In this document: piece by piece, positions 3,204 to 16,716 of the stretch | Numbering within the stretch: the first letter of the stretch is position 1 | Layout of the letters: the number at the start of each line of letters is the position of its first letter | Source of the DNA: Candidatus Butyricicoccus stercorigallinarum | Lineage (GTDB): Bacteria > Bacillota > Clostridia > Oscillospirales > Butyricicoccaceae | NCBI GenBank assembly: GCA_019112985.1 | Contig: DXIG01000043.1 | Location: 1-33,666, forward strand | Length of the DNA: 33,666 nucleotides | Direction: 5' to 3' | Notes under the pieces: model-generated | What the model saw: the letters and a program-made list of their open reading frames with translations, nothing else | What the model was told of the DNA's origin: nothing | Database searches by the model: none | Translations under genes and position numbers: made by a program

Positions 3204-3935
3204 TTAGCATCCCGCCAAATCCTTGATGACCTCTCCGGCCAGAATCAAGCCGGCGACCGAGGGCACAAAGGCGAGGCTGCCTGGCGCCCGCTTGTTGTTC
3301 TCCCCCGGCCGCCCCGGCACGGCGCTGTTCGCGATCTCGCGCCGGAGGGCAGACGGCTCCTCCCTGGAATAGACGGTCTTCAGGCGGCGGATGCCGCGCT
3401 TTTTCAGTTCGCGCCGCATGACGCGCGCGAGCGGATCGACCGAGGTCTGGTAGATGTCCGCCACCTCAAAGCGCGTCGGGTCGAGCTTGTTGCCCGCGCC
3501 CATCGAGCAGATGATCGGCACACCCGCCTGCTGCGCCCGGCAGACCAGCTCGAGCTTGGCGGAGACCGTGTCCACCGCGTCGATGATGTAATCGTATTGG
3601 CTCAGGTCGACGCGGTCGGCCGTCTCCGGCAGGTAAAACAGATTGTGCACGGTCACAACACAGTCCGGGTTGATGTCGAGAATGTGCGCGCGCATGACGT
3701 CGGTCTTCCGCCTGCCGAGCGTCGCCTGTGTGGCCACCAGCTGGCGGTTGATGTTGGAGCGCGAGACGACGTCGTCGTCAAACAGATCGAGCGCGCCGAC
3801 GCCGCTGCGCGCCAGCGCATCGACCGCATGGCCGCCGACGCCGCCGATGCCGAACACGGCCACGCGCGCCCGCGCCAGCCGCTCCATTCCCTCCGCGCCG
3901 AGCACCGCCTCAGTGCGCACAAATTCCTCCCGCAT
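3204..3935 (-). CDS. tcdA: tRNA threonylcarbamoyladenosine dehydratase (ThiF/E1-like)
   Basis: GIGGVGGHAVDALARSGVG, DxDxVSxSNINRQ-type E1-like motif and C-terminal layout typical of TcdA/YgdL. Confidence 0.88.
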   Translation of the reverse strand: MREEFVRTEAVLGAEGMERLARARVAVFGIGGVGGHAVDALARSGVGALDLFDDDVVSRSNINRQLVATQATLGRRKTDVMRAHILDINPDCVVTVHNLFYLPETADRVDLSQYDYIIDAVDTVSAKLELVCRAQQAGVPIICSMGAGNKLDPTRFEVADIYQTSVDPLARVMRRELKKRGIRRLKTVYSREEPSALRREIANSAVPGRPGENNKRAPGSLAFVPSVAGLILAGEVIKDLAGC

Positions 3936-4016: not shown

Positions 4017-4045
4017 TTGCATTGGTGCGCGTTTGTTGTTATACT
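4017..4045 (+). promoter_or_regulatory. Predicted sigma-A promoter of cysE
   Basis: TTGCAT (4017-4022), 17 bp spacer, TATACT (4040-4045). Confidence 0.65.
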
Positions 4046-4060
4046 ATCATGGTAGGAAAT
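4040..4060 (+). promoter_or_regulatory. Candidate Rrf2/CymR-type operator overlapping the cysE -10 and start site
   Basis: TATACTATCATGGTAGGAAAT; 14/21 identical to CATAGTAGTTTAGTAGGAATT in the metY leader. Confidence 0.5.
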
Positions 4061-4099: not shown

Positions 4100-5023
4100 A
4101 TGTCCCATTTCAACGACCATCTGGACGACATCGTCCGGCAGCTTCAGACCGGCTACCAGTCCAGTGATTTATTTTTCACCCGCGACGGCCTGGAGCGCCC
4201 CAACCGCAACGCCATCATTCAGATTCTGAACGATTTCCGTCAGCTGCTGTTCCCCGGCTATTTCGGCAACGAAAAGCCGACGCGCACCTCCGCCCCCTAT
4301 TTCGCCGGCCATATGCTGACCCGCATCTACGAGGAGCTGTATCCGCAGATCGCGCTGGCGCTCGCCTACCGCGAGGGCGGCTGCACCGAGCGCATCTCGC
4401 TGCGCGCCGAGGAGGCCGCGTCCGAGCTGCTCGGCGAGCTGCCGCGCATTCAGAAGCTGCTGCTCATCGATGTGGAGGCCGCGCTCAACGGCGACCCCGC
4501 CGCGGGCAGCCGCGAGCAGGTCATCTTTTCCTATCCGGGTCTGAACGCCATCTTCGTCCACCGCATCGCCCACGAGCTGTACCTGCGCGATATCCCGTAT
4601 ATCCCGCGCATCATGAGCGAATACGTCCACGGTCTGACCGGCATTGACATCAACTCCGGCGCGACCATCGGCGAATATTTCTTCATCGACCACGGTACCG
4701 GCGTCGTCATCGGCGAGACCACTGTCATCGGCAACAACGTCAAGATCTATCAGGGCGTCACGCTGGGCGCGCTGTCCACCCGCGCCGGACTCAAGCTGGC
4801 GGGCAAAAAACGCCACCCCACCATCGAGGACGACGTCACCATCTACTCCAACGTCTCGATTTTAGGCGGCCAGACCGTCATCGGTCAGGGCTGCACCATC
4901 GGAGGCAGTGCGTTTATCACCTCCTCCATTCCCCCGTTTTCGCGCGTCAGCGTCAAGAACCCCGAGCTGACCGTGGACGATTTCGGCGAAAAGGCCTATG
5001 AGGCGTCGGGCAACCAACCGTGA
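4100..5023 (+). CDS. cysE: Serine O-acetyltransferase
   Basis: Hexapeptide-repeat C-terminus, GATIGEYFFIDHGTGVVIGETTVIGNNVKIYQGVTLGALS; SD AAGGAG upstream of ATG 4100. Confidence 0.95.
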   Translation: MSHFNDHLDDIVRQLQTGYQSSDLFFTRDGLERPNRNAIIQILNDFRQLLFPGYFGNEKPTRTSAPYFAGHMLTRIYEELYPQIALALAYREGGCTERISLRAEEAASELLGELPRIQKLLLIDVEAALNGDPAAGSREQVIFSYPGLNAIFVHRIAHELYLRDIPYIPRIMSEYVHGLTGIDINSGATIGEYFFIDHGTGVVIGETTVIGNNVKIYQGVTLGALSTRAGLKLAGKKRHPTIEDDVTIYSNVSILGGQTVIGQGCTIGGSAFITSSIPPFSRVSVKNPELTVDDFGEKAYEASGNQP

Positions 5024-5083: not shown

Positions 5084-5518
5084 TCAGATGGAATAAAAAT
5101 CCTCCATCGTCTCGCTGCGCGCGACGAGATCCGCCAGCGTGACGCGGTCCACGACGCCGTTGATCGCGTCGTTGAATTCCTTCCACAGCGTCAGCGTGAC
5201 GCACCGGTCCGCCTTCGGGCAGGTCTCCACGCCCTCCTCCACGCAGGCGACCGGCGCGAGCGAGCCCTCCGTCAGGCGCAGAATGTCCCCCACGGTGTAT
5301 TCCTCCGGCTCTCTGGCCAGACGGTACCCGCCGGACGAACCGCGCACGCTCTTGACAAATCCGGCCTTGGTCAAAATGCCGATGATCTGTTCGAGATACT
5401 TTTCGCTGATGTTCTGACGCTTTGCGATGGTTTTCAGCACGATATTTTCCCCGGTGTCGTGCAGCGCCAGATCGAGCATCAGGCGAAGCGCATACCGGCC
5501 TTTGGTCGAAATTCTCAT
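5084..5518 (-). CDS. Rrf2 family transcriptional regulator (CymR/IscR-like)
   Basis: MRISTKGRYALRLMLDLALHD...ISEKYLEQIIGILTKAGFVKSVRGSSGGYRLAREP; SD AAGGAGGGGG. Confidence 0.92.
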   Translation of the reverse strand: MRISTKGRYALRLMLDLALHDTGENIVLKTIAKRQNISEKYLEQIIGILTKAGFVKSVRGSSGGYRLAREPEEYTVGDILRLTEGSLAPVACVEEGVETCPKADRCVTLTLWKEFNDAINGVVDRVTLADLVARSETMEDFYSI

Positions 5519-5539
5519 CTCAAACCCCCTCCTTCCCCC

Positions 5540-5568
5540 ATTATATAATAGGGATACTGGGAATACAA
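5540..5568 (-). promoter_or_regulatory. Predicted promoter of the rrf2 gene with an embedded candidate operator
   Basis: Minus strand TTGTAT (5563-5568), 17 bp, TATAAT (5540-5545); GGGATACTGGGAATA at 5551-5565 resembles the metY and cysE motif. Confidence 0.6.
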
Positions 5569-14301: not shown

Positions 14302-15231
14302 TCAATCGACAAACATGGTGGTGGACAGATAGCGCTCGCCGGTATCCGGCAGCAGCGCCACGATGGTCTTGCCCGCGTTCTCCGGGCGTCTGGCCAGCTC
14401 GGTTGCGGCATGCACGGCCGCGCCGGAGGTGATGCCCACCAAAATGCCCTCCGTCCTGGCGATGGCGCGTCCGGCGGCGAAGGCGTCCGCGTCTGTCACC
14501 GCGATCACCTCGTCGTAGACCTGCGTGTCCAGCGTATCCGGCACAAAGCCCGCGCCGATGCCCTGCAAGCCGTGCGCCCCCGCGCGCCCGCCGGACAGCA
14601 CCGGAGAGCCCGCCGGCTCCACCGCCACGATTTTCACGTTCGGATCGCGTTCCTTGAGATACCGGCCCGTGCCGGTGATCGTGCCGCCCGTGCCCACACC
14701 GGCGACAAAGAAATCCACCTTGCCCTCGGTGTCCCGCCAGATCTCCGGCCCGGTCGTCGCGTAGTGCGCCTGCGGGTTGGACGGGTTGACAAACTGCCCG
14801 AGAATCACCGCACCCTCGATGGTGTGTTTCAGCTCCTCCGCCTTTTCGATGGCGCCCTTCATGCCGGCGGCGCCCGCGGTCAGCACGACCTCCGCGCCGT
14901 AGGCCGCCACCAGCCGGCGGCGCTCCACGCTCATCGTCTCCGGCATGGTCAGGATGACGCGATAGCCCTTCGCCGTGCCGACGGCTGCCAGACCGATGCC
15001 GGTGTTGCCGGAGGTCGGCTCGATGATCGTCGCGCCCGGGCGCAGCAGACCCGCCTGCTCCGCGTCCGCAATCATCGCGGCGGCGACACGGTCCTTCACG
15101 CTGCCCACCGGATTGAAATATTCCAGCTTGGCGACAAGGCGCGCGTTCAGGTTGTTCTTCTGTTCGTACTGTACCAGCTCGAGCAGCGGCGTGCCGCCGA
15201 TCAGCTGTGTCATACTCGTTGCGATAGACAT
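14302..15231 (-). CDS. cysK: Cysteine synthase A
   Basis: [24 protein letters not shown] (PLP Lys), [24 protein letters not shown]. Confidence 0.96.
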
Positions 15232-15351: not shown

Positions 15352-16641
15352 TCATCCCGCCACCTGCCGGAACGCCTGATCGAGATCCCAGACGATGTCC
15401 TCCCAGTGCTCCGTGCCGATGGACAGGCGGATGGTGTTGGGATAAATGCCCTGCTGCCGCAGCTCCTCCGGCGTGCACTGGCCGTGCGTCGTCGTCGCCG
15501 GGTGGATGACCAGCGATTTGGCGTCCGCGACGTTGGCAAGAATGGAGAAAATTTGCAGCGAATCGATGAAGCGCTTCGCCTCGCGCTCGCCGCCCCGGAT
15601 GCGGAATGTAAAAATCGAGCCCGCGCCGTTGGGGAAGTACACGCGGTAGAGCGGCGCGTCGTGCGGGTTGAGCGACGGGTGGCAGATGGATTCCACCAGC
15701 GGCTGAGTCTGAAGGTATCGGAGCACCTGTTTGGTGTTTTCCACATGGCGCTCGACGCGCAGCGAGAGCGTCTCCAGACCCTGTAACAGCAGGAAGGCGT
15801 GGAACGGGGACAGCGTCGCGCCGGTATCGCGCAGCAGAACGGCGCGAATCTTGGTGGTAAACGCCGCGGGGCCGCAGGCCTCGGCGAAGCGGACACCGTG
15901 ATAGCTCGGGTCCGGCTCCACCAGCGTGTCAAAGCGCCCGGACGCCTGCCAGTCAAACGCGCCGCGCTCGACGATGACGCCGCCGAGCGTCGTGCCGTGT
16001 CCGCCGATAAATTTCGTCGCGGAATGCACCACGATGTCTGCGCCGTAGTCAAACGGGCGCAGCAGATACGGCGTCGCAAACGTGGAATCGACGACGACCG
16101 GAACGCCGTGCGCGTGCGCAATGTCTGCGACCGCCTGCATGTCGACCAGATTGCCGTTCGGATTGCCCAGCGTCTCAAAGAACACCGCCTTCGTGTTGTC
16201 GTCGATCGCCGCCTCAAAGTTGCGCACATCCTCCGGGTCGACGAAGGTCGTCGTCACGCCATCCCGCGGCAGCGTGTGCGCCAGATAGTTGTACGTGCCG
16301 CCGTAAATCGTCCGGGCGGCGACGATGTTGTCGCCGTTCTGCGCGAGCGTCTTGAACGTATAGCTCAGCGCAGCCGCACCGGAGGCGACTGCCAGCGCGG
16401 CTGTTCCGCCCTCCAGCGCCGCCATTCGCCGCTCAAAGACCTCCTGCGTCGGATTGGTCAAGCGCCCGTAGATGTTTCCGGCGTCCTCCAGGCGAAACCG
16501 CGCCGCCGCGTGGTCACAGCTGTGGAATACATACGACGTCGTCTGGTAAATCGGCACCGCGCGCGCGTCCGTCGCCGGGTCGGCCAGCTCCTGCCCGACG
16601 TGAAGCTGCAAGGTCTCAAAGTGAAACGCTCTCTCGCTCAT
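15352..16641 (-). CDS. O-acetylhomoserine aminocarboxypropyltransferase/cysteine synthase (Cys/Met PLP enzyme)
   Basis: FHFETLQLHVGQELADPATDARAVPIYQTTSYVF, GNIYGRLTNPTQEVFERRMAALEGG, HSATKFIGGHGTTLGG; MetY-like. Start within the longer 687-aa ORF. Confidence 0.92.
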   Translation of the reverse strand: MSERAFHFETLQLHVGQELADPATDARAVPIYQTTSYVFHSCDHAAARFRLEDAGNIYGRLTNPTQEVFERRMAALEGGTAALAVASGAAALSYTFKTLAQNGDNIVAARTIYGGTYNYLAHTLPRDGVTTTFVDPEDVRNFEAAIDDNTKAVFFETLGNPNGNLVDMQAVADIAHAHGVPVVVDSTFATPYLLRPFDYGADIVVHSATKFIGGHGTTLGGVIVERGAFDWQASGRFDTLVEPDPSYHGVRFAEACGPAAFTTKIRAVLLRDTGATLSPFHAFLLLQGLETLSLRVERHVENTKQVLRYLQTQPLVESICHPSLNPHDAPLYRVYFPNGAGSIFTFRIRGGEREAKRFIDSLQIFSILANVADAKSLVIHPATTTHGQCTPEELRQQGIYPNTIRLSIGTEHWEDIVWDLDQAFRQVAG

Positions 16642-16716
16642 GCTGTCCTCCTCTTTTTCCGGCGCGCGATGCGTCGGGCGGCATCCGCCGCACACCGCGC
16701 ATGACAAAGGAAATTT

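Follow-up and report, generated by a model that had tools for sequence, protein, structure and literature searches.

A shared palindromic operator points to an Rrf2-type cysteine regulon in Candidatus Butyricicoccus stercorigallinarum

In Bacillus subtilis, the complex of CymR with the cysteine synthase CysK is the described mechanism of Rrf2-type cysteine control (PMC3828012; PMC9338935). CymR is of the cofactor-free kind, while the three-cysteine members of the Rrf2 family are proven or predicted Fe-S binders (PMC5411485; PMC9338935). The DNA motifs of CymR and of IscR have been reported to be similar (PMC3828012). Cysteine control in clostridia has been described as little known (PMC2940859), with CymR-like control earlier proposed for Clostridium acetobutylicum (PMC3828012) and an Rrf2 candidate flagged in Clostridium perfringens (PMC2940859). 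Here we analyse a stretch of 33,666 nucleotides from Candidatus Butyricicoccus stercorigallinarum (hereafter the window), in which cysE, metY-cysK and a regulator gene probably constitute a cysteine regulon, predicted to be run by the neighbouring Rrf2 repressor via palindromic operators. This degree of confidence applies to the operator, the repressor and the regulon alone.

The window contains cysE, metY-cysK and the Rrf2 regulator gene (Table 1). An earlier sequence-only reading had linked cysE, the rrf2 gene and metY through a shared motif of about 21 bp, and cysK was missing from that finding. The CysE protein scores below the TIGR01172 cut-off and just under that of EpsC, and can be considered a divergent serine acetyltransferase with a long N-terminus. 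A gene for a TcdA/ThiF-like E1 enzyme (3204-3935, minus strand) is divergent from cysE, with the operator located in their common intergenic region; in genus genome G004, a TcdA-like gene has a candidate site of its own (L135). Rfam at the gathering threshold gave no match across the whole window, and T-box or riboswitch control is without Rfam support there.

Table 1. Genes, promoters and operator sites of the putative cysteine regulon in the window. Operators on the minus strand are given in gene orientation; ranks are among the 33,646 positions scored.
Feature	Position	Strand	Remarks
cysE promoter, TTGCAT-17-TATACT	4017-4045	+	read from sequence; both boxes kept in genus upstream regions
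cysE operator, GTTATACTATCATGGTAGGAA	4038-4058	+	over -10 box and likely start site; rank 2/33,646
cysE, serine O-acetyltransferase	4100-5023	+	TIGR01172 152.6 bits (cut-off 210.65); EpsC model 148.4 (cut-off 150)
Rrf2-family regulator gene	5084-5518	-	PF02082 143.5 bits (cut-off 30); Cys triad C92-x7-C100-x5-C106
candidate rrf2 autoregulatory operator, ATCCCTATTATATAATGGGGG	5535-5555	-	over -10 box; rank 6/33,646
rrf2 promoter, TTGTAT-17-TATAAT	5568-5540	-	read from sequence
cysK, cysteine synthase A	14302-15231	-	directly 3' of metY; TIGR01139 434.4 bits (cut-off 350.95)
metY, O-acetylhomoserine/O-acetylserine sulfhydrylase	15352-16641	-	TIGR01326 592.6 bits (cut-off 495.1)
metY-cysK operator, ATCATAGTAGTTTAGTAGGAA	16719-16739	-	about 15-35 bp 3' of -10 box; rank 1/33,646
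metY promoter, TTGACA-17-TATGTT	16782-16754	-	read from sequence

The operator is a palindrome of 21-23 bp, TTCCTACTnAnTnAGTAGGAA, that is conserved ahead of cysteine-synthesis genes in many gut Firmicutes. A palindromic search upstream of the cysE, metY and rrf2 genes of relatives, with the present genome omitted, yielded atTCCTAcTnAnTnAgTAGGAat. All palindromic runs recovered the operator, as did, among the unconstrained widths, only that of 21; non-palindromic searches at widths 17, 19 and 23 led to other motifs, that of width 23 falling in the leader-peptide region. The position weight matrix (PWM) of the relatives was used to score the window, with the mild circularity that its training sites had been chosen by one joint motif search. 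The metY site scores 22.5 bits, a value that shuffling its intergenic region never attained in 2000 trials, and the cysE site 16.1 bits, attained once in 2000. For the rrf2 site in the window the score is 6.4 bits, which 530/2000 shuffles attain, and this site is not significant alone. It was found that the metY site ranks first in the window for every PWM training set except the cysE-only set, where it is second, and it keeps first place when metY sites are omitted from the training. Trained on metY and rrf2 sites only, the PWM gives the cysE site 4.2 bits, a score reached in 315 of 2000 shuffles. Because of this low score, the case for the cysE site is made by genus conservation, the operator being kept in eight genus relatives, and by the independent cysK motif described below. 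Across the whole 2.1-Mb genome, TASTANNNNNGTAGGAAWT occurs at up to one mismatch at cysE and metY only; this string was derived from these same two sites, and the informative part is the absence of further matches. With a sequence model built from the relatives' sites, the metY site is the top match of its own genome and the only place above threshold. In the close relative G009 (L007, L067), cysE and rrf2 are retained together with the operator at cysE, but for metY the nearest match there is a paralogue of 47% identity.

The three strings named in the sequence-only reading are found where it had located them, and its account of promoter placement is right as far as the sequence can be read, each site overlapping or lying closely 3' of promoter elements. 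The string identity on which it relied fares differently. The cysE and metY strings do agree at 14 of 21 positions, but this is not above chance, since 14 or more identities arose in 219 of 300 shuffles of both intergenic regions. The third string, at 5545-5565, shares 8/21 positions with the cysE string and is some 10 bp out of register with the best match, at 5534-5555 (Table 1); its register is ruled out by both the PWM and the cysK-derived motif. Chance-level identity and a misplaced third site are what would be expected if the motif were a mere resemblance among AT-rich promoter regions, a view that we consider scarcely credible in light of the following independent tests.

For a test outside the genus, the 80 best Rrf2 relatives with titled genomes were used; most of these records are titled Lachnospiraceae, Oscillospiraceae or related groups, and many are metagenome-assembled genomes. 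De novo palindrome discovery upstream of the 37 cysK genes present among them, with zero input from the genus, produced TTCCTAcTaanttAgTAGGAA with a log-likelihood ratio of 205, versus 55 and 60 for two shuffled sets. This motif matches the palindrome from the relatives' promoters, and it again selects metY (26.2 bits) and cysE (11.4 bits; 1/1000 shuffles) as the first and second sites of the window, which argues against chance resemblance. The window's rrf2 site comes seventh and is not significant (219/1000 shuffles). The mean score of the same motif in the relatives' cysE, rrf2 and metY promoters lies, for each gene, above all 300 nulls. Conversely, sites are strongly enriched upstream of cysK outside the genus: with the genus PWM, a site of at least 14 bits is present at 23 of the 37 cysK genes (0.09 expected), and the same holds for 6 of 18 metY genes (0.05 expected). 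Shuffles and the independent motif together rule out a chance origin for the metY and cysE sites; for the rrf2 site of this species, chance could be the explanation. The local, Rrf2-linked cysteine regulon that had been suggested is thus supported by cross-species and cross-gene tests in place of string identity. The suggested autoregulation finds support in the rrf2 promoters of relatives and is weak in the present species.

Further members of the regulon were sought by scanning 12 genus genomes with the sequence model from the relatives' sites (E up to 10). The scan gave 19 distinct places, three of which are training sites, and 11 of the 16 others are located at cysteine or sulfur genes. 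These comprise genes for sulfate-binding protein (sbp; G002, G005, G006), cysK (G004, G006, G011), nifS (G011 only), gshA (G001), the metY gene of this window and the metY paralogues of G007 and G011, where the site overlaps the start codon in both. The E-values are individually weak (0.24 and up), and the weight of the scan lies in the identity of the genes reached. The remaining five places are without an obvious sulfur gene; matches in dnaA, thrE-like, glutamine-amidotransferase-like, ornithine-cyclodeaminase-like and TcdA-like neighbourhoods were left out of the regulon. A site of 15.4-23.3 bits is present at each of the six sbp genes whose upstream DNA could be read.

Gene order supports a link between the operator and the Rrf2 protein. 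The rrf2 gene adjoins cysE, or is at most 2 kb away, in six other genus members, and the metY-cysK order is kept in G003, G004, G005, G008 and G010. Distant Rrf2 homologues are often found beside metY or cysK: of the best 80 titled homologues, 40 have cysK no further than 4 kb away, 19 have metY and nine have iscS-like genes at such a distance. This linkage to cysE, metY and cysK across taxa, together with the operator in the relatives' rrf2 promoters, speaks against the operator being owned by another Rrf2 protein or a different regulator, with the neighbouring gene a bystander. At least two further Rrf2 genes in the genome (C66, C99) and the weak rrf2 promoter site of this species would be in keeping with such a bystander; the C66 protein, for its part, aligns poorly with the window regulator (31% over 120 residues). 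We regard this explanation as improbable.

Membership of the regulator in the Rrf2 family is further indicated by TIGR00738 (138.9 bits, cut-off 73.3). The protein scores below the cut-offs of both the CymR equivalog NF047409 (137 bits, cut-off 195) and the IscR equivalog TIGR02010 (128.2 bits, cut-off 207.55). Its cysteine triad is present in 30/30 homologues from the order and in 80/80 titled ones, allowing one residue of spacing tolerance, and is absent from the CymR structures 2Y75 and 3T8R. By sequence, the nearest solved structure is 4CIC, IscR of Thermincola potens (E 1e-35). The triad cysteines align with three serines of the 4CIC chain, which we take to be engineered substitutions of cluster ligands. 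In a 40-row tree with unresolved deep forks, the regulator is placed with neither CymR nor IscR. The label CymR-type, given in the sequence-only reading, therefore suits the target genes but not the protein, with its invariant triad and its score below the equivalog cut-off. These same two features weigh against the possibility that the operators and regulator proposed here are combined with sensing as in Bacillus CymR, where CysK would join at low O-acetylserine and steady the repressor on DNA, the triad being put to other use as a zinc site or thiol switch. The precedent in B. subtilis, a target class equal to that of CymR and the inclusion in the regulon of cysK, often beside the rrf2 homologue, would all agree with sensing of this type, which we nonetheless judge rather unlikely.

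We propose that a dimer of the neighbouring Rrf2 protein would bind the palindrome, with predicted occupancy of the cysE -10/start region, of a position just 3' of the metY-cysK start and, only weakly in the present species, of its own -10 box. Repression is the likely mode, because all three sites are placed to hinder RNA polymerase. Ample cysteine would lead to blocked transcription and scarce cysteine to release of the repressor; such relief upon cysteine shortage fits the target genes. The regulon is presumed to respond to cysteine, possibly with CysK as a partner. Fe-S cluster state, with cluster sulfur derived from cysteine, would be the most likely signal because the protein has an IscR-like cysteine triad. 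On balance we lean towards sensing via an Fe-S cluster in preference to a complex of the CymR-CysK type, the two not being mutually exclusive.

In addition to the operator, relatives often have a short ORF containing CGAATGTG in the metY leader; in G010, for instance, it reads MNHRIFITKEYTFYGRMCCC-stop. The corresponding R-M-C-x-C-stop pattern, CGNATGTGYNNNTGYTRA, has six matches in the 12 genus genomes, all upstream of metY or sbp, and the reversed control pattern has none. The leader ORFs concerned (L277-L282) are distributed over G003, G004, G007, G008 and G010. NCBIfam gave no match for any of six leader peptides, and Rfam on 20 metY loci returned a ribosomal L10 leader as the only match, with none at the leader ORFs. 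From its sequence, the short ORF looks like a cysteine-sensing attenuator and would be a second control layer over the same genes, metY and sbp. The metY leader of the window species (16642-16716, minus strand) is without CGAATGTG and reads TGTGCGGCGGATGCCGC; it is possibly a decayed leader. In some relatives the TGN codon following R-M encodes Trp or is a stop. For this reason, importance may lie as much in the nucleotides, or in the context of R-M, as in the cysteine codons. In other genera (L045, L047, L048, L060, L061, L064), what comes after the same CGAATG element is a stop codon or a different residue, as in WRCGRM-stop, so that R-M together with the nucleotides, and not the cysteine codons, may be what is conserved. 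It is conceivable, though we put this forward tentatively, that across Lachnospiraceae, Oscillospiraceae and relatives cysteine synthesis is under an Fe-S Rrf2 sensor that replaces the cofactor-free CymR, and that certain species control metY and sulfate uptake at two levels, through the operator and through a Cys-rich R-M-C-x-C leader peptide.

With the operator defined, a candidate put forward as regulator and the target genes named, direct testing is feasible in cultured members such as Roseburia faecis or Flavonifractor. Should the triad hold a cluster, a single protein would sense both the supply of cysteine and the Fe-S status, and CymR and IscR would look less sharply divided within the Rrf2 family than present descriptions have it. 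In the literature searched, which covered few subscription journals, no description was found of a triad-bearing regulator with this target set.

Among known systems, the CymR regulon of B. subtilis and Staphylococcus aureus is similar in its Rrf2-family control of cysteine genes, with cysK among the targets (PMC3828012). CymR differs in having no cofactor (PMC5411485) and no triad, and the window protein misses the CymR cut-off. IscR, as represented by T. potens 4CIC and the Escherichia coli protein, resembles the window regulator in the three conserved cysteines of the C-terminal part. It is, however, defined by control of Fe-S assembly, whereas the targets here serve the synthesis of cysteine and the uptake of sulfur, nifS being among them in a single relative. 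The predicted CymR regulon of C. acetobutylicum likewise has an Rrf2 gene (CAC2236) beside cysK and predicted CymR-type sites (PMC3828012), but was obtained with Staphylococcus-derived matrices, and the lineages considered here lie outside that work. Cpe1786 of C. perfringens is an Rrf2 repressor with 50% identity to CymR that is up in cysteine limitation (PMC2940859). Unlike the window gene, it is located beside iscS-iscU, and cysK of C. perfringens has a T-box whereas the window is without any Rfam match. The kind of regulon is already known; the variation lies in the pairing of these targets with a regulator that bears the triad.
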